Shown here piece by piece: positions 8,766 to 26,269 of a DNA stretch of 29,320 bases (positions are counted from its first letter, which is position 1; every line of letters starts with the position of its first letter). The translations under genes were made by a program, and so were the position numbers. The stretch lies in NCBI GenBank assembly GCA_017308345.1, contig JAFKFE010001199.1, forward strand, positions 1-29,320, in the 5' to 3' direction. The notes beneath the pieces were generated by a model that did no database searches, had not been told where the DNA came from, and saw only the letters and a program-made list of their open reading frames with translations. The stretch comes from Alphaproteobacteria bacterium. GTDB taxonomy: Bacteria > Pseudomonadota > Alphaproteobacteria > Rhizobiales > Rhizobiaceae.

Positions 8766-11165
8766 TTACTGGATGGTATCGATGGCGCTGGTCGACGAGC
8801 CGAAATCGCCCAGCGTGCGGAACGACAGGTTGAAGCCGATATTCTGCGACACTTCCTTGGTTATGGTATCGCGTGTCTGAGAATACGTCATGATGTAGGT
8901 GAAGCAGGAGTCATTGTAGGCGAAGCCGACCCCGTCCTTGACCAGCACGTTGCTCTGGATGTCGTAGGTGCCGGTGCCGAACAGCCGCCAGTTCTGCGCC
9001 AGATGCGTCGAGGCTCCGAGCGTGACCTCGTGGCGGTCGGTAGTGAAGCCATAGAGCGGCTGCGCCTCGATGAAGGCGTATTTGGCGCTGAGCGATATCG
9101 GCAGGCTGGAATAGGCGGCCTTCACTTCGGCGCGCCTGACCTCGAATGTCTGCTCGTCGAAACGCCCGCTCAGCGAGCCGGAGAAGCCGCTCGGGCTGTT
9201 GAAGCCGACAAGGCCGACATAGTCCGAGGTCCGCTTGTCCAGGCCGGACTCGGCGCCGACATTGACGAGATCGGGGGCGGCGAAGGAGTTCAGGCCCGCG
9301 AGCTGATAGGACTGGCCGAAGATGGCGTTCGTGGCCCAGCCATTGTCGTAGGCGCCTGAATAGCGGAAGCCGACATTGGCGCGCGTGCCGCCCTCTATGC
9401 GGTCATAGCCCGAGAATTTGTCGCGCTCGAACAGCGTGGTGGCGTCGAAGACGAAGCTCTGCGAGTCTTCGTTGGGAACGGCCAGTCCGCCGACATATTG
9501 CTCGTTCGGGCGCACAAAGACCTGCGCGGTCGGCTCCAGGATGTGGCTGGAGCTCGGCATCGAGAACAGCAGCGGCCAACGCGCCTCGAGGCCGAGAGTG
9601 GCCATGTAGCGGGCAAGCGACGAGCGCATGTCGACGTCTTGGCCGAGATTCGTGCCCATCTGGTTGACGGCGGCGAGCGAAGCCGAATTGGCGTTGACAT
9701 AGCCGGCATCGCCGCGGAAGGCGAGCAACGGCGTCAACTGCAGTCCGCCATCGGTGGTGAAGGTGCGCTTCCATTCGGCTTCGGCGGTGATCCGGCTCGA
9801 CTCGCCCTCGACGCCGCGCACATTGTTGACGGACGTGTCGTCGAGCGGATTGGCCAGCACCGCATCCAGCCGGTTGCGGCTGATGACACGCGCGTTGACG
9901 TTGAACGACAGCTGGCCGCCGGCCACCGATGTGTCGGGAATATAGGCGTAATCGAGCGACGGCAGCACCCAGGGCTGCTTGGCCGCGCGCGCCGTCGGAT
10001 CGCTGGACAGCGTATCTTCCTGCACCTCGAAGCGCATGGCGCGAACATCGAAATAGTTGCGGTCGCTCAAGCCGGTCAGATAGATCGACGACTGGTGTGC
10101 GAGATCGCTGTAGCCGTCGATGTTGTAGGTGCGCGAGAAGTCCTTGTCGGTCTGCAGCAGCACGTCCCAGCCGAAGTTCCAGCGCTCGTTGATGGCGAAC
10201 TGGCCCTTGGTGCCCATCATGCCGCGGAACTTGTTCGGATCGCCGGGCTCGCCCGAATCGACGACATAGCGGTTGCCGGTGCCGATGAACGCATCGGGAT
10301 TCTGCTGGTTGATGCCGGCGATCTTCAACGAGTACTCGCCGTTGTTGAAGCGCTGGCGCCACTCGGCCTCGCCGAGGAAGCCCTGCTTGGTATAGCCGCT
10401 GCCGGTGACGGTGAGGTCATAGGTCGGCGACAGCGCGAAATAATAGGGGACTTTCACGCCGACGCCGAGATGGTTGTTGTAGACGATGCCGGGGATCAGG
10501 AAGCCGCTCTTGTGCTTCACGGTAGGGTCGGCGATCTCGAAGGCCGGCAGATAGGCAAGCGGGAAGCCGAAGAACTCGAAATTCGAGTTCTCGAAGCGGA
10601 CCGTCTTCTTCTCGCCGTTCCAGATGATCTTTCGCGCCTTGATGCGCCAGGTCGGCGCTTTGTCCGGCTTGTCCTCGCAAGGTTCGCAGGCGGTGTAGAC
10701 GCCATTGTGGAAGGTGGTCAGCACGCCGCCCATGCGCTCGGCGCTCTCGGCGGCGAAATAGGCCTTGTCGATCGTCTCGACGCGCAGCGCGTTGGTGAAG
10801 CCGTCGGCGAAGTCGTCGGTGATGTCGATATGGTCGGAATTGACCTTGGTGCCGTCGCTGTTGATGAGCTCGACGGCGCCGCTGGCCACGAGGCGCTTGG
10901 TGTCGCGGTTGTACACCACGCGCTGGGCGACGAGCTTGTTGCCGCCATAGTCGATCTGCACACCGCCGACGGCCGTCACCGTGTGCTTGTCGTTGTCATA
11001 GACAAGCGTATCGGCGGCCAGCAGCATCTGCGTGCCGGACGGGACGGGCTTGGCAGTAACGGTCTGCGCCAGCGCGGGTGCCATCGGCACCGCACAGGCG
11101 AACAGACATGCCAAGGCGGTCGCCCCATAGAGGCGTGCCAAACCGGCCTGCCTATGGCTGCGCAA
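8766..11165 (-). CDS. lptD: LPS-assembly protein LptD (outer-membrane LPS translocon)
   Basis: About 799 residues. LptD is the outer-membrane beta barrel that, with LptE, inserts lipopolysaccharide into the outer leaflet. A signal peptide ends in APALA at about residue 33. An N-terminal OstA/LptA-like jellyroll follows (MLLAADTLVYDNDKHTVTA, GNKLVAQRVVYNRDTKRL), then the conserved FFGFPLAYLPAFEIADPTVKHKSGFLIP entry (quoted in part: FGFPLAYLPAF, SGFLIPGI) and a long barrel of alternating strands. The preferred start is TTG 11165, with GGGAGG just upstream, giving a compact signal peptide. GTG 11180, sharing one base with the lptG stop, is the alternative. Mature cysteines are C160, C163 and C754 only, unlike E. 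coli, which has four. Confidence 0.93.
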   Translation of the reverse strand: MRSHRQAGLARLYGATALACLFACAVPMAPALAQTVTAKPVPSGTQMLLAADTLVYDNDKHTVTAVGGVQIDYGGNKLVAQRVVYNRDTKRLVASGAVELINSDGTKVNSDHIDITDDFADGFTNALRVETIDKAYFAAESAERMGGVLTTFHNGVYTACEPCEDKPDKAPTWRIKARKIIWNGEKKTVRFENSNFEFFGFPLAYLPAFEIADPTVKHKSGFLIPGIVYNNHLGVGVKVPYYFALSPTYDLTVTGSGYTKQGFLGEAEWRQRFNNGEYSLKIAGINQQNPDAFIGTGNRYVVDSGEPGDPNKFRGMMGTKGQFAINERWNFGWDVLLQTDKDFSRTYNIDGYSDLAHQSSIYLTGLSDRNYFDVRAMRFEVQEDTLSSDPTARAAKQPWVLPSLDYAYIPDTSVAGGQLSFNVNARVISRNRLDAVLANPLDDTSVNNVRGVEGESSRITAEAEWKRTFTTDGGLQLTPLLAFRGDAGYVNANSASLAAVNQMGTNLGQDVDMRSSLARYMATLGLEARWPLLFSMPSSSHILEPTAQVFVRPNEQYVGGLAVPNEDSQSFVFDATTLFERDKFSGYDRIEGGTRANVGFRYSGAYDNGWATNAIFGQSYQLAGLNSFAAPDLVNVGAESGLDKRTSDYVGLVGFNSPSGFSGSLSGRFDEQTFEVRRAEVKAAYSSLPISLSAKYAFIEAQPLYGFTTDRHEVTLGASTHLAQNWRLFGTGTYDIQSNVLVKDGVGFAYNDSCFTYIMTYSQTRDTITKEVSQNIGFNLSFRTLGDFGSSTSAIDTIQ

Positions 11166-11179
11166 AACCGCCTCCCTCA

Positions 11180-12262
11180 CTAGCCGTCTTCCTTGTATAG
11201 CAGAAACGTCACCCCAAAGAACATAGCCACGACGACTGGAACCCATGCTGCCACCACAGTAGGCACGAATCCAGCCACACCGAATGCCTTGACCAGTACC
11301 GAAACGACATAAAGCAGAAAGCCGGCCACGACGCCACCCAGAATCATCGTTGCCGACTGCCCCATTCGCGCAAATCGCATTGAAACCGTTGCGGCAATCA
11401 GCGTCATGGCGACGAGAAGGAACGGCAGCGCCACCAGCGAATCAAACTGCATGGCGAAGGCATTCGCCTTCAGCCCGAAGGAGCGGGCGACCTCGATCTT
11501 GCGCGGCAGCTCGTAGAAAGGGATGGTTTCCGGGCGCGCCAGGCGCTCCTGAACGAATTCCGGCTTTAGGTTGGTCGCCACCTTGTCGGTCGCCAGCGTC
11601 TGGATATTGCCCCCCTTGAAGACCTTGACGTCCTGCAATTCCCAGTAGCCGTCGCGCAGGAAGGCCTTGGCCGCGTCCTTGCGCTCGGCGATGTTGCCCT
11701 GCTGGTCGAGGACGAAGAACACCGCGTCCGCCATCTCCAGCCCCTGATTGAGGATGGCGCGGGCGCCGATGATGGTGTCGCCTGATTCGGTCTTCTGCCT
11801 GAGCCACGGCGTGACGTTGGTGGTCACGGCGTTCGATTTGCCGGCCCTGAGGTCGTTCTCCATCTGCTCGGACCAGGAAAAGCCATGCGCGGCGATCGGG
11901 TTCATCACCGCCACCGAAAGCACGCCGAACATCAGCGCGCCGACGCAGCACGGGAACAGGAACTGCCAGGCCGAAACGCCGGCCGAGCGCGCGATCACCA
12001 GTTCGTAGCGGCGGTTGAGCGACACGAGCGTCGCCATTGCCGAGAACAGCCCGACGAACGGCACCGTCTGCAGCATAATCATCGGCATCCTGAGCGCCGA
12101 GATGGCGAAGGCCGTGCCGTAGGTGAAACCCGGCAGTCCGGTCGTGCGGCCGGACAACTCCGTGAAATCGATCAGGAACACCAGCGCCAGCAAGCCCAGG
12201 AAGAACCAGAAGGTGATCGAGACGTAACGGAAGAAGAAGTAGCGGCCCAGCGTCCAGCCCAT
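11180..12262 (-). CDS. lptG: LPS export ABC transporter permease LptG
   Basis: 360 residues from ATG 12262, two bases after the lptF stop, with GGGAG upstream inside lptF. LptG pairs with LptF as the membrane half of the LptB2FG transporter that extracts LPS from the inner membrane. The start MGWTLGRYFFFRYVSITFW leads into the first membrane helix. Further helices follow near 60-85 and 100-120 (LFPCCVGALMFGVLSVAVM). A central periplasmic beta-jellyroll spans about 130-260, and three C-terminal helices end in VVAMFFGVTFLLYKEDG. This YjgP/YjgQ topology, with six helices around a periplasmic domain, fits the family, as does the lptF-lptG-lptD order. LptG is assigned over LptF by the LYK tail and second position. 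Confidence 0.94.
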   Translation of the reverse strand: MGWTLGRYFFFRYVSITFWFFLGLLALVFLIDFTELSGRTTGLPGFTYGTAFAISALRMPMIMLQTVPFVGLFSAMATLVSLNRRYELVIARSAGVSAWQFLFPCCVGALMFGVLSVAVMNPIAAHGFSWSEQMENDLRAGKSNAVTTNVTPWLRQKTESGDTIIGARAILNQGLEMADAVFFVLDQQGNIAERKDAAKAFLRDGYWELQDVKVFKGGNIQTLATDKVATNLKPEFVQERLARPETIPFYELPRKIEVARSFGLKANAFAMQFDSLVALPFLLVAMTLIAATVSMRFARMGQSATMILGGVVAGFLLYVVSVLVKAFGVAGFVPTVVAAWVPVVVAMFFGVTFLLYKEDG

Positions 12263-12264
12263 GG

Positions 12265-13461
12265 TCAGGCTCCCTGGCCCGACGTGCGCCGGGCGAGCCA
12301 GAGCTTGAAAGCCTGCCAGTTGTCGCTGGCGCGCCTGGCAAGATTCGTCAGCCAGTCTGCCCAACTGACCGGCAATTCCATGCTGCGCGACGAGATGATG
12401 AACCAGACCGAAACCGCCGAGGCGACGAACGGTATGACGTAGAGCAGGTAGACATAGTACCAGACCCTGTCGGCCTTTCCGGCTGCGAAGAAGCCCAGCC
12501 AGCGCACGAAAAGCGCTATCGCGATCGCCGTGATCAGCGGATTGATGCGCGCCTCCCGGTGCGAGCGTGCATCGCCGGCGACGGCAAGCGCGATCAGCGC
12601 GAACACCAGCGAATAGGACCATTCGGCGAAGCGCTGGTTCAGCTCCGCCCGATAGCTGCCCGGGTCGCGCTGGAACATCCTGTCGTTGGGATCCGGGTTG
12701 AGCAGATACGTCGTCGTCCGGTCCTTGGGCAAAAGCGATATCTCGTTCGCCGCCGACATGAAGGCCGACATGTCGAAGGCGTAGGAGGTGAAGCGGATGA
12801 CGGAGAGGTCGCCGGTCACCGATTTGCGGTTGATGACGCCGTCATTCATCATCAGCACCTTCTCGTCGCCCTTTTCGACGATGCTGCCGGTCTTGGCGTA
12901 ATAGGTGAGGCTGGCGCCTTCCTCGCGCGAATCGGCCACGAAGATGCCGCCCAGCCTGTTGCCGGGAAGCCGTTCGCCGATCTGCAGATACAGCCCCTCG
13001 TCGATCTTGCGGAACGTGCCTTCCTGGATGATCAGCGACACGAGGTCGGCGCGCGAGGCCGCCACCAACTGGCGGTTCTTCTGCCTGGCATAGGGGTCGA
13101 TGGCGTTGTCGACAATGAAGGAAAACGCGCAGGCAAAAGCCGCGAGCAGCAAGATAGGCTTGGCGATCGTCCAGCGCGAGGCGCCGGCGGCGCTGAGCAC
13201 GGCGAGTTCCGAATCGGTGTTCATCGCGCTCAGCGTCTGCGCCACCGCCACCACCAGGGCGAACGGCACCACGATCGGGATGATCGAGGGGATGATGAGC
13301 GCGGCGACTTCGAAGAAGGTCAGCGCCGACTGGCCGTTGTCGGTGACGAGGTCGATCTTGGCCAGCACCTGCGTCGTCCACACGATTGCCAGCGTCCAGA
13401 CCAGCGCCGCGAGGAACATCGTCAGCGCGCGGCGCATGATGTAGCGTTCAACGACCTTCAT
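12265..13461 (-). CDS. lptF: LPS export ABC transporter permease LptF
   Basis: 398 residues, first gene of the operon lptF-lptG-lptD-surA-pdxA-rsmA. The protein begins MKVVERYIMRRALTMFL, the usual opening of YjgP/YjgQ permeases. Three N-terminal membrane helices follow, including LIIPSIIPIVVPFALVVAVA, and the cytoplasmic coupling segment LSAMNTDSELAVLSAAGAS, diagnostic of this family. A periplasmic beta-rich domain spans about 140-260. Three C-terminal helices follow (SLVFALIALAVAG, ITAIAIALFVRWLGFF, YLLYVIPFVASAVSVWFII). ATG 13461 is the natural start. The operon promoter should lie in the 377-base divergent gap shared with pepA. Confidence 0.95.
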   Translation of the reverse strand: MKVVERYIMRRALTMFLAALVWTLAIVWTTQVLAKIDLVTDNGQSALTFFEVAALIIPSIIPIVVPFALVVAVAQTLSAMNTDSELAVLSAAGASRWTIAKPILLLAAFACAFSFIVDNAIDPYARQKNRQLVAASRADLVSLIIQEGTFRKIDEGLYLQIGERLPGNRLGGIFVADSREEGASLTYYAKTGSIVEKGDEKVLMMNDGVINRKSVTGDLSVIRFTSYAFDMSAFMSAANEISLLPKDRTTTYLLNPDPNDRMFQRDPGSYRAELNQRFAEWSYSLVFALIALAVAGDARSHREARINPLITAIAIALFVRWLGFFAAGKADRVWYYVYLLYVIPFVASAVSVWFIISSRSMELPVSWADWLTNLARRASDNWQAFKLWLARRTSGQGA

Positions 13462-18800: not shown

Positions 18801-19790
18801 ATGCGGATCAGGATCGTCGGAACCGGCAGGGCTGTGCCAGCCGAGCTGGTTACGACACGTGCGCTCGAGGAGAGGCTGGGTCTTGGCAAGGGCGCGCTCG
18901 AAACCGCGACCGGCGTCGTCGAGCGCTACGTCTGCGAAGCCGAGTCGCAGATCGACCTCGCCTGTGCCGCGGCACGCCTGGCGTTGGACGATGCCGGCGC
19001 CGAGCCCGCCGCCGTCGACCTGATCATCGGCGGCTGCGGCGTGCCTTACCAGCCGCTGCCGGCGACCGCGCCCCTGGTCATGCAGCGCCTCGGGCTGGCG
19101 GACGGCTCGGCCGCCGCGTTCGACGTCAACAGCAGCTGCCTCGGTTTCCTCACCGCCTTCGAGACCGCCGGCCGCATGATCGAGGCCGGGCAATGCGGGA
19201 CGGCGCTGGTCTTTTCGTCCGAAGTCGCCTCGCGCGCCTTGCCGTGGCGGGATGCGCCGGAGATCGCGGCGCTCTTCGGCGACGGCGCCGCGGCGGCCGT
19301 GCTGCGCAAGGCTGAACCGGGCGAGGGCAGGGTGGCAGCGAGCCTGATGCGCACCTATCCCTCCGGCTGGGAGGCTTGCGGCATCGGCTCCGGCGGCACG
19401 CGCTTCGATTTCCGCAAGGAGCAGGAAGCGTTCGCCGCGCACAGCCTGTTCCACATGGACGGCAAGGAATTGTTCCGGCTCACCTCGCGCCACTTCGACG
19501 GCTTCGTCGGCGCCCTGCTCGAACGCGCCGGCTGGTCGCGAGGGGACGTTGATCTCGTCGTGCCGCATCAGGCAAGCCCCCTGGCGCTTGCGCATATGGC
19601 GCGTCAGACCGGCTTTGCGCCGGAAAAACTGGTCGACATCTCCGCCCGCTTCGGCAACCAGATCGCCGCCTCCATTCCCTTCGCGCTCGATCTCGCGCGC
19701 CGCGACGGGCGCGTGGCGCCGGGCATGAAGCTGCTCTTCCTCGGCACCTCGGCCGGCGTCTCCTTCGGCGGCGTGGCGCTGGAGGTCTGA
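18801..19790 (+). CDS. FabH/OleA-like 3-oxoacyl-ACP synthase III family protein
   Basis: 329 residues from ATG 18801 with GGGGGGAGA directly upstream. KAS III enzymes perform a decarboxylative or non-decarboxylative Claisen condensation on an acyl-CoA starter. The catalytic triad is complete: C113 in NSSCLGF, H256 in VVPHQAS, N286 in FGNQIAASIP, close to FabH numbering (112/244/274). The rest of the fold is present (DVNSSCLGFLTAFETA, LFGDGAAAAVL, LLFLGTSAGVSFGG). The asparagine loop reads GNQIAASIP instead of the GNTSAASIP usual in fatty-acid FabH, and the gene is not in a fab cluster. I therefore infer a dedicated role in a secondary pathway. It is first in a six-gene operon; the next gene starts two bases after its stop. 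Confidence 0.9.
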   Translation: MRIRIVGTGRAVPAELVTTRALEERLGLGKGALETATGVVERYVCEAESQIDLACAAARLALDDAGAEPAAVDLIIGGCGVPYQPLPATAPLVMQRLGLADGSAAAFDVNSSCLGFLTAFETAGRMIEAGQCGTALVFSSEVASRALPWRDAPEIAALFGDGAAAAVLRKAEPGEGRVAASLMRTYPSGWEACGIGSGGTRFDFRKEQEAFAAHSLFHMDGKELFRLTSRHFDGFVGALLERAGWSRGDVDLVVPHQASPLALAHMARQTGFAPEKLVDISARFGNQIAASIPFALDLARRDGRVAPGMKLLFLGTSAGVSFGGVALEV

Positions 19791-19792
19791 GC

Positions 19793-20700
19793 ATGGTCGT
19801 GCTCGTCACCGGCGCAAGCGGTTTCCTCGGCTCCCACGTGCTATCTCGGCTGGCCGCGTCCGGCACGCCGTCGCGCAGCCATTCGATGCCGCCCTCGACC
19901 CCAGGCTGGGCAGGGTCGAACGGATCATCCACTGCGCGGCGCTCTCCTCGCCCTTCGGACGCCTCGCGGATTTCGAGGCGGCCAATGTCACGGCAACGCG
20001 CAACCTTGTCGATTTCGCAAAACGGCAGGGCGTCAGCCGCTTCGTCCACATCTCCAGCCCGTCGGTCTGCTTCGCCTTCCGCGACCAGCTCGGCCTCACC
20101 GAAAACGCGGCCTTGCCGGAACCGGTCAATCACTATGCCCGCACCAAGCGCGAGGCCGAGACGGCCGTGCTTGGCCGGCCCGCCGTCCATCCGGTTGTGC
20201 TGCGGCCGCGCGGCATCTACGGCAAAGGCGACCGCGCATTGCTGCCGCGCCTGATCAAGGCCGCTAGAGGCCGGCCGCTGCCGCTTTTCCGCAATGGCCG
20301 GGCGGCCATCGACCTCACCCATGTCGACGATGTCGTCGATGCGGTGATGGCGGCGCTCGCGGCGCCCGGCAAGGCCGAGGGCGAGATTTTCAACATTTCC
20401 AGCGGAGAGGTTCTGCCGGTCCGCCGCATCGCCGACGAGGCCTGCATCCGCGCCGGCCTGCGGGCGCGCTGGCGGCCGGTGCCGCTGATGCCGGCGATGC
20501 TGGCGGCGGGCCTGATGGAAGCGGTGGCGCTTGCTCTGCCCGGACGCCCCGAACCGCCGGTCACCCGCTACGGCCTCGGCCTCTTTGCCTATGCGCAAAG
20601 CCTCGACCTTTCCAAGGCGAAACGGGTGCTCGGCTGGGCGCCGAAGATCCCGTTCGAGCAGGGGCTTGACCGCACTTTTTCCGGCAGGGCGCCGGCATGA
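19793..20700 (+). pseudogene. NAD(P)-dependent epimerase/dehydratase (extended SDR), frameshifted
   Basis: About 302 residues if repaired. Extended SDRs of this kind reduce or oxidise a keto/hydroxyl group with NAD(P)H. Reading starts at ATG 19793 with the Rossmann motif LVTGASGFLGSH. The frame then changes by -1 at about 19862-19866: inserting one C would give ASG-HAVAQPFDAALD. Conserved sequence resumes in the new frame (RIIHCAALSSPFG, NVTATRNLVDFAKRQGVSRF, HISSPSV). The catalytic YxxxK is in NHYARTKREAE, and DLTHVDDVVDAVMAAL and IFNISSG follow. Without repair the protein would lose most of its fold. The stop overlaps the next start (ATGA, 20697-20700). The change may be a real mutation or a one-base assembly error. 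Confidence 0.82.
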
Positions 20701-21521
20701 GGATCGTCTTCGCCAACAGCGCCTGGGTGAGCGCCGCCGAGCGGCTCATCCTGCGCGGCGGCGGCTGGCAAAGCGTCAGGCTGCGCGTGCGCTACGGGCT
20801 GATCCTTCACCCGGCTGCCGGGCCTGTACTCATCGACACCGGCTACACGCCGGAGGCGCTGAGCGGCGAGCGGCGCGGCCGGATGCTGCGCCTTTACGGC
20901 GCGCTGCTGAAGCCCGAGCTCAACGAAGCCGAACAGCTTCACCAGGTGCTGCGGCGTTTCGGCCTGTCGCCCGATGACATCCGCGCCGTCGTCGTCACCC
21001 ATTTCCATGCCGACCACATTTCGGGCCTGTCGCTGTTCCGCAACGCGCGCTTCATCGCCAGCGATGCCGCCTGGGCGCGGGTCAAGGCGCGCGGCCCAGG
21101 ACGGAATTTGCGCCATGGCGTCTTCACCGAACTTCTCCCGGCGGATTTCGAGGCGCGGCTGGAAGGCCTGTCCACGAGAAGGCGGGTCGAGGCGCGCGAG
21201 GATGTGCCCGCCGGCGCCGATCTCTTCGGCGACGGCAGCGTGATTGCGGTCGATCTTCCTGGACATGCCGATGGCCAGTTCGGCCTGTTGTTTGCCGGCC
21301 TGGAGCGGCCGCTGCTCTACGCCGTCGATGCGCAATGGCTGCTTCAAGCCCTGGCCGAAACTCGCACGCCCGGTCTTCCGGCCACCCTGATCGCCGAGGA
21401 TGCCGCGGCAATCGAGCCGACCAGCGCCATGCTGCGCCGCTTCCTTGCCTCCGGCGGCGAGGTGATGCTGTGCCATGATCCCGCGCCGACATCCTATGAT
21501 CTCTCGCCGGAGGTGGCATGA
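20697..21521 (+). CDS. Metallo-beta-lactamase-fold hydrolase
   Basis: 274 residues. The two-zinc MBL site is complete: THFHADH (H102, H104, D106, H107), the third histidine H190 in DLPGHADGQ, the bridging D211 in YAVDAQW, and H260 in MLCHDP. This HxHxDH arrangement, with a long insert between the first and second metal motifs, resembles the lactonase/thioesterase-like members, which open lactones or hydrolyse esters. The exact substrate is unknown. There is no signal peptide, so it is cytoplasmic. The start ATG overlaps the SDR stop and its own stop overlaps the next start (ATGA at 21518-21521). The operon position suggests it hydrolyses or releases an acyl intermediate. Confidence 0.88.
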   Translation: MRIVFANSAWVSAAERLILRGGGWQSVRLRVRYGLILHPAAGPVLIDTGYTPEALSGERRGRMLRLYGALLKPELNEAEQLHQVLRRFGLSPDDIRAVVVTHFHADHISGLSLFRNARFIASDAAWARVKARGPGRNLRHGVFTELLPADFEARLEGLSTRRRVEAREDVPAGADLFGDGSVIAVDLPGHADGQFGLLFAGLERPLLYAVDAQWLLQALAETRTPGLPATLIAEDAAAIEPTSAMLRRFLASGGEVMLCHDPAPTSYDLSPEVA

Positions 21522-22744
21522 GCGGGCTGGCGGAAGCGGCAGGCTCCTTCGCCCTGACACGCTGGGTCTCGCGCAAGATCCGGCCCGATTTCGAGCGCTG
21601 GCAGGCGGCCGCGCTGCGGCACTTCCTCGACCGCGACCTGCCGCGCGCGCCCTTTTACGGCAAGGCGCCAGCGAATCTCGCCGACCTGCCGGTCACCGGC
21701 AAGGCGCTGCTGATGGCGCGCTTCCGCGCAGGCATGGGCCGCCTTGGCAGGCGATGGCCGCGCCGGATCGCTCACGGTCGGCGCCAGCACCGGCACCTCC
21801 GGCAATCGCGGCCTGTTCGTGATTTCCGAGGCCGAGAAATACCGCTGGCTGGGGGCGATCCTGGCCAAGGCGGCGCCCGATCTCCTGTGGCTTGGCATGC
21901 GCGTCGCCGTCATCCTGCCGCAGAACACCGGGCTCTATGACAGCGCCCGCAAATCGCGCCTGATCAGGCTCGCCTTCTTGGATCTGACTGTGGGGCCGGA
22001 GAGCTGGCGCGGCGCGCTGGAAGCCTTCGACCCCACGGTCATCATCGCGCCGCCAAAGATCCTGCGGCATTTCGCGGCCGAGAATTTCCGGCTCCGGCCG
22101 AAGCGCGTCTTCTCCGCCGCCGAGACGCTCGATCCGGTCGACCGTCCGGTGATCGAAAATTACTTCCGGCTGCCGCTCGACCAGATCTACATGGCGCCGA
22201 AGGCCTGTTCGCGGTCACCTGTCGGCAGGGCGGCCTGCATCTTGCCGAAGACTCCGTCTTCTTCGAATTCGAACCGGCGGGCGAGGGGCTCGTCACGCCG
22301 CTGGTCACGTCCTTTCGCCGCCGCACGCAGATCATGGCGCGTTACCGCATGAACGACCTGCTGCGGCTCTCGGAGCAGCCCTGCAGCTGTGGTTCGCCCT
22401 TGCGCTCGGTCGACGAAATCGTCGGCCGCATGGACGATGTCTTCCGGCTTGCTTCGGCGAATGGCCAGATACTGGTCACGCCGGATGTACTGCGCAACGC
22501 CGTGCTCAAGGCCGACCGCCGGATCGACGACTTCCGCCTCGTCCAGACCGGGCCGGACAGGGTCGAGCTCAGGCTTCCGCCGATGCTCGCGAACGAGGCG
22601 GCGGCTGCCGCGCATCAGGCAGTCCGCGCGCTGCTGGAAGCGCGAACGGCCATCGTCACCGTCGCGCTCATCCGCGCGCCGCTGCCGCTGGAAACGGGCC
22701 GCAAGCTGCGCCGTGTCGAATGCCGCCTGGAGCAGGCGCGATGA
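21518..22744 (+). pseudogene. PaaK/F390-synthetase-like adenylate-forming enzyme, two frameshifts
   Basis: Roughly 408 residues if repaired. The family (phenylacetate-CoA ligase and coenzyme F390 synthetase relatives) activates a carboxylate as its acyl-AMP. Frame 1 runs from ATG 21518 (LTRWVSRKIRPDFERWQ, FYGKAPANLADLPVTGKALL) to about 21720-21745. Frame 2 then carries the AMP-binding loop LTVGASTGTSGNRGLFVIS and continues to QIYMA near 22195. One base appears lost there, and frame 3 gives EGLFAVTCRQGGLHLAED, RRTQIMARYRMNDLLRL, PCSCGSPLR and VGRMDDVFRL, the family's C-terminal signature. The first shift may include a small deletion, since the two segments do not join neatly. Stop and next start overlap (ATGA, 22741-22744). 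No adjacent ACP is present. Confidence 0.82.
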
Positions 22745-23886
22745 ATGGCGCGGCGGTGGCGCAGAAATCCTTGCAGCAGGCCGGCCGGGTCGAGAACGAT
22801 CCGGCCAAGGTCGAGGCTTTCGTCGGTCTTTTCAATGAGGTGCCGGTGCGCGATCTGATCGCCAACCTCAAGACGAAGGTCGAGGCGTTCGAAGTCGCCG
22901 GCCGCGTTTTTCCGCTGACGCTCAACGACGCCGGTGAAGCGCCCAACTGCTATATCTGCTGCCCGACCAGCGCCTATATCGACTATGCGGTCGACGAGAC
23001 GCGCAACTTCGCCGCTCATCCGTCGCTGCGGCGCGCGCTCGACACGTTGATCGGCGCCTGCGCGCCGCTGGTCAGGGCGAGCGGCCTCGACCGTCAGGCG
23101 CAGCTCAACAACTGGCTCTATTCGACCAATCCGGTGCCGCTGCTCGACCGGCCGACGGTCGCGTCGCTGCGCTCGGCCCTGACCGCGCGTTTCCCCGAGC
23201 GCGCCATCGTCATCCGCTCATTGAACGATATCGCCGATCCGGCGACCATTGCCGCGCTGAAGGCGGAAGGTTTTCGGATGCTGGCGGCACGCCAGATCTA
23301 CATCTTCGCCGACCGCAGCGCGGCGCCCGCCGTGACAAAGAACCTGAAACGCGACCGCAAGCAACTCGGCGCCACGCCTTTCGAGCGGGTCGGCGATGCC
23401 GATTTCACGGAGGACGACTATGCGCGCGCCGAGCAGCTCTACAACATGCTCTATCTGGAAAAATACACGCCGCTCAACCCGCACTACACCGCACGCTACA
23501 TCGCCGAGATGCACCGGCGCGGCATCATCAGCCTTGCCGGCCTGCGCCGGCCGGGCGGCGAGCTCGTCGCGGTCACCGGCCTGTTCGAGAATGGCGGCAC
23601 GCTCACCCAGCCGATCGTCGGCTACGACACCGGCCTGCCGCTCGGCGAGGGGCTCTACCGCATGGTGATGGCGCTTGCGCAGGACCATGCCACCAGGCGC
23701 GGCCTGTTCTTCAACATGAGCGCCGGGGCCGCCGGCTTCAAACGCCTGCGCGGCGCGGTCGCGGCGATCGAATACATTGCCGTCTATGCCGGGCACCTCC
23801 CGCTTCGCCGGCGTCTGGCGATCCGCGTCATGGAGACCGTGCTGGCGCTGATCGGCATTCCCCTGCTCAGGAGGTTCGAGCTGTGA
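22741..23886 (+). CDS. Uncharacterised protein, possible GNAT-fold acyltransferase
   Basis: 381 residues from ATG 22741, which overlaps the preceding stop by four bases. I do not recognise a named family with certainty. The N-terminal part has an unusual cysteine cluster, APNCYICCPTSAYIDYA (C70, C73, C74). The middle contains ARQIYIFADRS, NLKRDRKQL and a helical DDYARAEQLYNMLYLEKYTPLNPHYT in parts. The C-terminal half (RRGIISLAGLRRPGGELVAVTGLF, GLYRMVMALAQDHATRRGLFFNMSAG, AAGFKRLRGA) has the strand-helix pattern of GNAT/FemAB-type acyltransferases. In such proteins the FNMSAGAAGFKRLRG region would be the acyl-CoA or peptide-side end. No signal peptide is seen; a hydrophobic C-terminal stretch (ETVLALIGIPLL) may touch membrane. 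It probably acts on the pathway's acyl intermediate. Confidence 0.6.
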   Translation: MNGAAVAQKSLQQAGRVENDPAKVEAFVGLFNEVPVRDLIANLKTKVEAFEVAGRVFPLTLNDAGEAPNCYICCPTSAYIDYAVDETRNFAAHPSLRRALDTLIGACAPLVRASGLDRQAQLNNWLYSTNPVPLLDRPTVASLRSALTARFPERAIVIRSLNDIADPATIAALKAEGFRMLAARQIYIFADRSAAPAVTKNLKRDRKQLGATPFERVGDADFTEDDYARAEQLYNMLYLEKYTPLNPHYTARYIAEMHRRGIISLAGLRRPGGELVAVTGLFENGGTLTQPIVGYDTGLPLGEGLYRMVMALAQDHATRRGLFFNMSAGAAGFKRLRGAVAAIEYIAVYAGHLPLRRRLAIRVMETVLALIGIPLLRRFEL

Positions 23887-24878
23887 GCGAGCGCCATGGG
23901 CAAGACCAGTGGCAGGCCGTGGCCCTGTCCGCCGACATCGGCAAGCGGCCGAGGCGCATCCTGCTCGACGGCGAGCCCGTGGTGCTGTTCCGCTCGGCGC
24001 AAGGCATCGCCGCGCTGTTCGACCGCTGCCCGCACCGTCTGGTCGAACTCTCGACCGGCAAGATCGTCGGCGGCGAGATCGAATGCCCCTATCACGGCTG
24101 GCGCTATGACGGCGAGGGCCGCTGCACCGCCATTCCGGGCCATGTCGGCGCCACGCCGCGCTACCGGGTCCGCCGCTTCGCGGCGATCGAACGCGACGGC
24201 GTCGTTTTCGTCTCGTCCGGCGCGCCGTTGGGCGAGCCCTACCTGCACTGCATGCAGGGCAAGGACGTCATCGTGCGCCGGGTGCGTTCGTCGACGCAGT
24301 CGACGGTCATCAATGCCGCCGAAAACATCCTCGACGCCACTCATACTCATTTCACCCATAAGGGCCTGCTGCGCGGCCTGACCTCGAGACGCCATCGGGT
24401 GCGGGTTGAGGTCACCGGCGGTGAAGGCTGGGTCGAGGCCTGCTATACCGGCGAGGACCGCCAGCAGGGCCTGATCAGCCGGCTCCTGGAAGGCGAGCGC
24501 GCGAGAACCATCGGCCGCTTCCGTCATCCCGGCATCGCCGAGCTGGAATATTGGGGCAGGGACGGGCTGGTCCTGGCCACCACCTTCCACCTGCGCCAGG
24601 CCGACGAGCGCACCGTCGAGGGCATCGGTTGGCTGATTGGCCGGCGCCAGGGCCTGCTCGGCGAACTGAAGGCGCTGGCCTTCAAGCCATTGTTCAACGT
24701 CGCTCTTCAGCAAGACCGCCGCGTGCTGAAATCGGCCAGCGACAATGCTCGTTTCGCTCCACAAGCCCAGCCGGTCATCGGCCCGCTCGACTTCCTGCGC
24801 CGGGATATCGCGGCGATCATGAAGGGGAAAATGCCGCCGGTGGCGAGCGAACCGAAGGTGCATGAGATCGAGTTGTAG
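23883..24878 (+). CDS. Rieske (2Fe-2S) non-heme iron oxygenase, alpha-subunit-like
   Basis: 331 residues from GTG 23883 (GTGA overlap with the previous stop; AGGAGG at 23869-23874). The Rieske cluster ligands are C49-P-H51 and C68-P-Y-H71 (DRCPHRLVELS, ECPYHGWRYDGEG). The mononuclear iron site is ENILDATHTHFTH, with the electron-bridging D151 and ligands H154 and H159; QQDRRVL further on likely supplies the third, acidic ligand. Such oxygenases hydroxylate, demethylate or desaturate organic substrates and need a separate reductase, which is not in this window. The compact size resembles the VanA/KshA-like single-component terminal oxygenases rather than the larger ring-hydroxylating ones. It is last in the operon, so I infer a late tailoring step. 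Confidence 0.9.
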   Translation: MSERHGQDQWQAVALSADIGKRPRRILLDGEPVVLFRSAQGIAALFDRCPHRLVELSTGKIVGGEIECPYHGWRYDGEGRCTAIPGHVGATPRYRVRRFAAIERDGVVFVSSGAPLGEPYLHCMQGKDVIVRRVRSSTQSTVINAAENILDATHTHFTHKGLLRGLTSRRHRVRVEVTGGEGWVEACYTGEDRQQGLISRLLEGERARTIGRFRHPGIAELEYWGRDGLVLATTFHLRQADERTVEGIGWLIGRRQGLLGELKALAFKPLFNVALQQDRRVLKSASDNARFAPQAQPVIGPLDFLRRDIAAIMKGKMPPVASEPKVHEIEL

Positions 24879-25099: not shown

Positions 25100-26269
25100 C
25101 TAGCCCGAATCTGGCCCGTTCCACTCTATATCCCGCGTCGAAGCCGCCTGCAGACTGATCCGCTGTCGCAGTGCCACGCCGGCCATCTCAGCCAGCGCCC
25201 GCCATTGCGCCTTCACCGGCGCGCTGTCGCCCGGCCAGTCGAGCAATTCCTGACCGTCGCGCATCGCCTCTCGGAACCCACCTGAGCGCAGCGCCCCCGG
25301 CAGCCCATAGATCCACATCGCAAGCCGCACCGTCTGCGGCGCGGCGACGTCCGGCCTGACCTCCGGACCATCGCCGAGCACGGCATCCGCAAACCGCGCC
25401 GGATCGCGGAAGAAATGCAGGCCGCTGACGGCGCGCGGATTGCATTCCAGCGGCAGCACGCGGCCGCCCCGCTCGCGCATCAGGTCGAAGGAGATCTGCC
25501 CGGTCCACGAAGTGCCGGCGACGATGCGTTCGACAAGGTCGCGCGCCGCCGCATCCTCGATCCGCTCGAAGAAGATGCCGGCGCCCTTGCCCGCGCGGTA
25601 GCGCGAACGGTAGAGCGCCAGCGCCTTGAGACGGCCTTCGCGCGCCACCGCATAGGCGCTGATCTCATCGCCCTCGATAAAACGCTGCGCCACCCAGGGC
25701 GTGGCGGACGAGGGCGCGATTGCATCGAGCGCCTCGGGCGGCGGTCGCCGCAGGACATGGCTGCCGAAGCGCGACCACACCGGCTTGAACACCAGCGCGC
25801 GCGAGCGGCCGCGCACCGCCTCCAGATCGTCGCGGGAATTGAGAAGCGTGGTCTCCGGCGCCGCCAAGCCAAGCTGTTCAGCCAACCGGATGAAGCTGTG
25901 CTTGTTGTGAACCTGCGCCAGCAACCCGATATCGGGGGCGAACAGTCGCGCCGGTATGGTCCGACCTTGCCAGGCGAGCGCGAGGTGAAAGACCTCCTCG
26001 CAGGTCGGGATGGCGAGGCCGATGCCATCTGCCCGGACCAGCGCCTCAACCGCCTCGGCATAGGCCTGCGGCTCGAAGCGTGGCGGCGGCAGCCGGTGAT
26101 AGCGCGCGCAGGCATTGCTCGACGCCGCGATGGGCCGCGCCGGCGTGTCGGCCAGGATCACCCTGTGGCCGGCGCCGTGCAGCAGCCGCGCCAGATGCAG
26201 CGCCACCGGCGCGCGTGCCCCCGTAATCTGGATGGATGTAATCAGGATGGATCTGTCAGCCCCCGGCAT
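25100..26269 (-). CDS. ATP-grasp domain protein (carboxylate-amine ligase type), substrate unknown
   Basis: 389 residues. ATP-grasp ligases activate a carboxylate as acyl-phosphate and join it to an amine, thiol or hydroxyl. The N-terminal pre-grasp domain (ILITSIQITGARAPVALHLARLLHGAGHRVI, shown in part as GARAPVALHLARLL) is Rossmann-like. The grasp region has RALVFKPVWSRFG (K162), WVAQRFIEGDEISAYAV, GQISFDLM (D262) and VLPLECNPRAVSG (E275, N277, R279), where the E-x-N-x-R set binds Mg-ATP. It resembles the large group related to carbamoyl-phosphate synthase and amino-acid ligases; the substrate cannot be told. It converges on the Rieske operon and lies 92 bases past the glycosyltransferase gene. 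A role in the same pathway is plausible but unsupported by shared transcription. Confidence 0.82.
   Translation of the reverse strand: MPGADRSILITSIQITGARAPVALHLARLLHGAGHRVILADTPARPIAASSNACARYHRLPPPRFEPQAYAEAVEALVRADGIGLAIPTCEEVFHLALAWQGRTIPARLFAPDIGLLAQVHNKHSFIRLAEQLGLAAPETTLLNSRDDLEAVRGRSRALVFKPVWSRFGSHVLRRPPPEALDAIAPSSATPWVAQRFIEGDEISAYAVAREGRLKALALYRSRYRAGKGAGIFFERIEDAAARDLVERIVAGTSWTGQISFDLMRERGGRVLPLECNPRAVSGLHFFRDPARFADAVLGDGPEVRPDVAAPQTVRLAMWIYGLPGALRSGGFREAMRDGQELLDWPGDSAPVKAQWRALAEMAGVALRQRISLQAASTRDIEWNGPDSG

Follow-up and report, generated by a model that had tools for sequence, protein, structure and literature searches.

A cluster of seven genes in a 29,320-nt stretch of DNA from an Alphaproteobacteria bacterium of the Rhizobiaceae (contig JAFKFE010001199.1 of assembly GCA_017308345.1, positions 1 to 29,320; hereafter the window) can be read as a single two-module unit that would build, oxidize, and amidate a β-hydroxyacyl product. 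We put the probability of this reading at roughly 0.4; it is the best explanation we can give of the gene content, order, co-inheritance, motifs, and predicted folds, from which we infer every reaction, the order of the steps, and the product. An earlier interpretation drawn from the letters of the window (the sequence-only reading) had taken the first six genes as an operon. Their open reading frames (ORFs) and overlaps are as it described, but it missed that two of the six are broken and overlooked a seventh member, an ATP-grasp ligase on the opposite strand. The genes are as follows (aa, amino acids).

18801 to 19790, plus strand: KAS III-like ketosynthase (KAS), 329 aa; PF08541/PF08545; Cys113-His256-Asn286 triad; Leu86 at the position of the OleA catalytic Glu
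19793 to 20700, plus strand: extended short-chain dehydrogenase/reductase (SDR), OleD-like; best NCBIfam model OleD; broken by a 76-nt deletion near 19870
20697 to 21521, plus strand: metallo-β-lactamase (MBL)-fold hydrolase, 274 aa; PF00753; HFHADH motif; closest to N-acylhomoserine lactonases among solved structures
21518 to 22744, plus strand: F390-synthetase-related (TIGR02304) adenylate-forming enzyme, PaaK/F390-like; broken by a 29-nt deletion near 21723 and a 1-nt deletion near 22196
22741 to 23886, plus strand: PF13480 double GCN5-related N-acetyltransferase (GNAT) acyl/aminoacyl transferase, 381 aa; fold predicted to resemble Fem/MprF/Sbb17
23883 to 24878, plus strand: Rieske non-haem iron oxygenase, 331 aa; PF00355 and VanA_C; CxH/CxxH cluster; NxxDxxHx4H iron site
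25100 to 26269, minus strand: ATP-grasp ligase, 389 aa, convergent seventh member; NF005315/PRK06849-like, below cut-off

A check of the sequence bears out every coordinate of the first six ORFs. The KAS gene ends at 19790 and the SDR gene starts at 19793, leaving a 2-bp gap, and four 4-bp overlaps follow (ATGA at 20697, 21518, and 22741; GTGA at 23883) before the Rieske stop at 24878. The six family names likewise hold in Pfam and NCBIfam matches. That such tight coupling signifies one pathway, as the sequence-only reading supposed, is supported by the order and co-inheritance of the genes in relatives. A search with the GNAT retrieved 55 named relative loci, a sample therefore biased toward GNAT holders. 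Matches to all seven genes occur at 49 of them, with one order and orientation in 49/49. If the criterion for an intact gene is that the best matching stretch, free of stops, spans at least 85% of the query, all seven are intact in 46 of the 48 loci with enough flanking sequence (4.5 kb left and 2.6 kb right of the GNAT, a span rule that set aside 7 of the 55, including L014, which has all seven); the 46 include L017, which passes although its PaaK match spans two frames. The two exceptions are L059, whose GNAT contains a stop, and L065, with no KAS, SDR, MBL, or PaaK nearby. Holders, which comprise many rhizobia as well as marine bacteria, include Mesorhizobium (cultured strains among them, such as M. 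amorphae CCNWGS0123, L033, whose cluster is intact), Shinella, Tateyamaria, Maritimibacter, Yoonia, Roseibium, Stappia, and Falsigemmobacter.

Within the genus, the genes of the unit are inherited strictly together in the genomes tested: KAS, GNAT, Rieske, and ATP-grasp, the four genes searched for (SDR, MBL, and PaaK lay outside this search), are each present in 32 of 81 genomes, the same 32 when the sets were compared by eye, and absent from the same 49. At the level of the order, a GNAT profile matches 5/347 genomes, three of them in the genus. Pairwise protein distances correlate for all gene pairs across 47 loci (Pearson r 0.92-0.98) and for gene pairs within the 36 Mesorhizobium-like loci (0.84-0.90). 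Co-occurrence in relatives was the check that the sequence-only reading itself proposed, and co-inheritance together with constant order and orientation rules out a chance grouping of families. Clustering of ORFs of at least 90 aa found only the seven named families common to at least 10 of 16 divergent loci, the next family being in 6. Since that threshold is too long for an acyl carrier protein (ACP), the clustering was repeated from 50 aa; outside the seven genes, no family of 50-400 aa ORFs was common to more than 4 of the 16 loci, several of whose stretches are short. The lack of an ACP and a Rieske reductase noted in the sequence-only reading is thus supported, with no conserved neighbor of such size among the 16.

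The ATP-grasp gene emerged from gene clustering around the 55 relatives as the seventh conserved family, just downstream on the opposite strand. Clustering places it in 14 of the 16 divergent loci, tblastn gives a match in 16/16, and it overlaps the Rieske gene tail to tail by 16 nt in 11 of the 49 loci. Elsewhere its position varies: all seven genes lie on one strand in L171, and the ATP-grasp gene is located inside the KAS operon in L084, L085, and L119, the first of which has a divergent GNAT and no Rieske match. Its protein scores 315 bits against NF005315/PRK06849 (cut-off 406), and a PDB search with the single sequence gave nothing useful. The predicted structure places it in the ATP-grasp fold and resembles PurD and PylC. 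At L086 (6343-11299), a 27% relative lies within a four-gene set that by eye looks like the mycosporine-like amino acid genes MysABCD.

The two modules can separate, because Thalassospira carries them on different contigs: GNAT-Rieske-ATP-grasp at L065, and a KAS-SDR-MBL-PaaK operon (43, 38, 29, and 33% identity) on another. The former set (L065:5998-13271) lies beside genes that by eye resemble those of ectoine synthesis. In the reading we prefer, module 1 (KAS, SDR, MBL, and the F390-like enzyme) would make and activate an acyl acid, and module 2 (ATP-grasp, GNAT, and Rieske) would carry out attachment and tailoring. The KAS, of MxnB/FabH type, would extend or join acyl thioesters to a β-ketoacyl product, and the OleD-like SDR would reduce the ketone. 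The MBL hydrolase, which may be a thioesterase, a lactonase, or an enzyme of a second step, would free the acid from its thioester or open a lactone, and the F390-like enzyme would convert the acid to an acyl-AMP. The ATP-grasp enzyme would then form an amide via an acyl phosphate, and an amine would receive an acyl or aminoacyl group from the Fem-like double GNAT. Hydroxylation (or demethylation) of the product would fall to the Rieske oxygenase, using a reductase from outside the cluster. The product would be an oxidized β-hydroxyacyl amide or a lipo-amino acid.

The Rieske 2Fe-2S motif CxH/CxxH is present in 47/47 loci and the NxxDxxHx4H iron site in 46/47; the window has both. The best NCBIfam model for the intact SDR of Mesorhizobium sp. 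ORS3359 (L013) is OleD, as the sequence-only reading would have it, at 186 bits, far below the cut-off of 580. The intact L013 F390-like protein scores 261.2 bits against TIGR02304 (curated cut-off 251.9) and has no Pfam match at E≤0.1, and so none to an AMP-binding (OleC-type) model, which agrees with the suggestion of a different activating family. We know of no reaction assigned to TIGR02304. Excerpts of PMC5467263, PMC9823363, and PMC5501837 list "coenzyme F390 synthetase" by name only, two of them in tables, and contain no description of the cluster. In its predicted structure, the GNAT has a Fem-like double-GNAT fold along the whole chain; its sequence matches only PF13480 at E≤0.1, and PDB searches with the sequence or a GNAT profile gave nothing useful.

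The glutamate of OleA and PpyS (E117 and E105, respectively), whose catalytic role is described in the excerpted text of PMC4578411, is Leu or Ile in 21/21 KAS of the family and Glu in 4/4 OleA. In a KAS tree, the family stands apart from both OleA and FabH and may group with MxnB; the joint split of the family plus MxnB from FabH/OleA has a support of 0.969, and MxnB's own placement only 0.37. An OleA-type ketosynthase, which the sequence-only reading had assumed, is rejected on the missing glutamate and the tree position; the tree comparison with OleA and FabH that it suggested thus set the KAS apart from both. MxnB is also the top PDB match (168 bits), ahead of FabH (157 bits) and the KAS of Pseudomonas quinolone signal (PQS) biosynthesis, 3h76 (77 bits). 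The family retains the Cys-His-Asn triad and has a hydrophobic residue at the position of MxnB V94.

The retained triad and the match to 3h76 would also suit a PQS-like logic. A starter acid activated by the F390-like enzyme would be condensed with a malonyl unit by the KAS, in the manner of PqsD; the MBL would serve as thioesterase like PqsE, and the SDR, Rieske, and ATP-grasp enzymes would finish an aromatic or amino product. The set of KAS, MBL, and ligase resembles PqsD, PqsE, and PqsA. We consider this route unlikely, because MxnB and FabH both outscore 3h76, the PDB matches of the MBL are lactonases, and the versions in E. coli and G619 carry fatty-acid enzymes.

Two further schemes are each improbable. 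The sequence-only reading had favored an Ole-like β-lactone/olefin pathway, with head-to-head condensation by the KAS, reduction by the SDR, β-lactone closure by the F390-like enzyme, and the MBL replacing OleB, and the OleD-like score of the SDR and the proximity of KAS, reductase, and adenylating enzyme speak for it. Against it stand the absent OleA glutamate, the tree, and the lack of an AMP-binding match noted above, and it leaves the ATP-grasp and GNAT unexplained; an OleB-type α/β hydrolase is not among the families common to at least 10 of the 16 divergent loci. The affinity of the KAS for MxnB, inside the family clade with weak support, and the ATP-grasp relative in the presumed MysABCD set would be explained if two chains were condensed to a pyrone or 1,3-diketone whose enol is aminated by the ATP-grasp enzyme in the manner of MysC, giving an enaminone or pyridone. 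The SDR would remove the very ketone this chemistry needs, no carrier-protein-sized neighbor is conserved, MxnB's placement is insecure, and the likeness to MysC is remote. A ceramide-like N-acyl lipid, with the GNAT as bacterial ceramide synthase and the SDR as CerR, would draw on the PF13480 N-acyltransferase-type protein, the extended SDR, and the lipid enzymes of sister clusters, and is very improbable given that the seven families common to at least 10 of the 16 divergent loci contain no pyridoxal phosphate enzyme resembling serine palmitoyltransferase.

The window's own copy of the cluster is damaged. Compared with both L013 and L014, 76 nt are missing from the SDR near 19870, and the PaaK/F390-like gene is short by 29 nt near 21723 and by 1 nt near 22196; by the 85% rule, L013 and L014 have both genes open at these sites. 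The cofactor motif GASGFLG and the catalytic motif YARTK (YxxxK) of the window's SDR fall in different frames, and its PaaK/F390-like gene matches TIGR02304 as two pieces of 108 and 112 bits. The breaks would be recent or an assembly fault, because dN/dS (the ratio of nonsynonymous to synonymous substitution rates) between the window and L013 has values of 0.16 (SDR) and 0.18 (PaaK-like gene), similar to the 0.14-0.21 of the other five genes. With no sign of long decay, we reject old pseudogenes. The source assembly has 1307 contigs and is 79.9% complete. Unless the breaks are assembly errors, the pathway in the window itself is probably incomplete. Other copies carry breaks too: the PaaK-like gene is split in M. 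loti UFLA 01-765 (L017:8773-10001) and the GNAT has a stop codon in Yoonia vestfoldensis (L059:9998-11095). The cluster occupies the same region as that of L013: both have the same two upstream genes (94 and 97% identity), separated from the cluster by several further genes in the window, and the same downstream glycosyltransferase (94%). Left of the cluster in the window are lipopolysaccharide export genes (LptD and two LptF/LptG; 8766-13461) and, at its left end, a FabF-type ketoacyl synthase (247-1509).

Outside these relatives, gene neighborhoods indicate that KAS-SDR-MBL-F390 is a wider core, reaching Bacillota and E. coli, that is combined with exchangeable modules: ATP-grasp plus GNAT (with or without Rieske), DUF3419 plus GNAT, a sulfotransferase, or PAP2 with a fatty-acid hydroxylase and a desaturase. 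We opened 7 of 18 plasmid records matching the ATP-grasp and 8 of 58 matching the F390-like protein. The first combination takes several forms. Paenibacillus urinalis has the run KAS-ATP-grasp-SDR-MBL-F390-GNAT, Pontibacillus the same run without the GNAT, a Paraburkholderia plasmid KAS-SDR-MBL-F390-ATP-grasp-GNAT, and Shinella zoogloeoides the full seven genes. After the GNAT of the Paraburkholderia locus (L125:11167-12623), a partial Rieske match (39% over 104 codons) falls where no gene is listed. DUF3419 plus GNAT stands in place of module 2 in some relatives: Rhizobium NIBRBAC000502774, Shinella oryzae, and G1020 have the core, then a DUF3419-type protein (scored by Pfam in the first, by eye in the other two), then a GNAT relative (33-37% identity). 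Stretches with this arrangement (L159:4144-10482, L164:4144-10476, and L172:3196-9695) contain no ATP-grasp or Rieske match. DUF3419 is BtaA-like.

Ketogulonicigenium and Paracoccus pair the core with a TetR regulator and a sulfotransferase, the latter identified by Pfam in Ketogulonicigenium; the product there may be sulfated. The core adjoins these two genes at L129:4533-10263 and L161:2439-8155. E. coli NRG 857C (L130:4001-10882) carries KAS-SDR-MBL-F390-PAP2-fatty-acid hydroxylase-desaturase between narI and the tRNA-Tyr/purU genes, and this seven-gene relative has a megablast match in 672 of 5,426 complete E. coli genomes, with at least 80% coverage in 671. The core is also present in Burkholderia stagnalis and in Pseudomonas FeN3W, where it is accompanied by a 530-aa protein and an ATP-grasp relative lies elsewhere on the plasmid. 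TIGR02304 has any match in 39 of 299 genomes and exceeds its cut-off in 4; of five contexts opened, G619, G689, and G465 have the core, and G614 and G643, with weak matches, have no such cluster. An ATP-grasp match occurs in 13/385 genomes of the class; among the 12 others, three were opened, and the core is in G351 and G366 and missing from G145. The P. amygdali stretch has F390 and ATP-grasp with no KAS, SDR, or MBL match, and in Leaf58 the parts are scattered.

These combinations give the strongest hints about the product. An amino partner is suggested because either an ATP-grasp gene (with Rieske) or a DUF3419-type protein adjoins the same GNAT family, and the replacement of one by the other is a direct hint at what is attached; an acyl chain is suggested because E. 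coli-type clusters contain a fatty-acid hydroxylase and a desaturase. Several points weigh against the seven-gene, two-module reading, beginning with the two broken genes of the window. In two Deinococcus records, ATP-grasp and GNAT occur with no core nearby. Conversely, the stretches that carry the core in E. coli, Ketogulonicigenium, Paracoccus, Burkholderia stagnalis, Pseudomonas FeN3W, G619, and G689 have neither gene close to it, so a product of the core may not require them. No activity is assigned to any of the cluster's enzymes, and a shared fold does not prove a shared reaction. The GNAT matches no FemAB Pfam model, and PF13480 also includes acyl-CoA-dependent enzymes. Finally, it is redundant in this scheme to have an ATP-grasp ligase alongside the adenylating enzyme.

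A broader proposal, which we advance tentatively and with more doubt than conviction, is that the four-gene core defines a new cross-phylum class of acyl-metabolite pathways whose finishing modules are swapped as units, and that the GNAT-containing branches join an amino-acid unit, possibly from aminoacyl-tRNA, to the acyl product, forming a new family of bacterial aminolipids. The view that no characterized cluster has this set agrees with the openly licensed PubMed Central literature, in which, judged mainly from titles and the starts of abstracts, we recognized no description of the seven genes and found no product for the unit. We place the cluster with the KAS/SDR/adenylation acyl pathways, and there is a fair chance that the wider family is new. 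Because the core recurs in rhizobia, roseobacters, Bacillota, and E. coli, one solved product would give chemistry to many unnamed clusters.

The ATP-grasp protein is 11-20% identical to PurD, PylC, and L-amino acid ligases, and the GNAT is 10-14% identical to the aminoacyl-tRNA-dependent transferases FemX, MprF, and Sbb17. Like OleABCD, the cluster combines a KAS III-fold enzyme, an OleD-like reductase, and an adenylating enzyme in one gene run; in contrast to OleABCD, its KAS lacks the OleA glutamate, its adenylating enzyme has no AMP-binding Pfam match, and it adds MBL, ATP-grasp, double-GNAT, and Rieske proteins. MxnB and CorB, of myxopyronin and corallopyronin biosynthesis, are the top PDB matches of its KAS and, in the excerpted texts of PMC4578411 and PMC5724707, likewise have a hydrophobic residue where OleA and PpyS have the glutamate. 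Whereas MxnB joins two carrier-protein-bound polyketide synthase chains, as the excerpt of PMC5724707 describes, the KAS of this cluster stands alone with an SDR and an MBL hydrolase.

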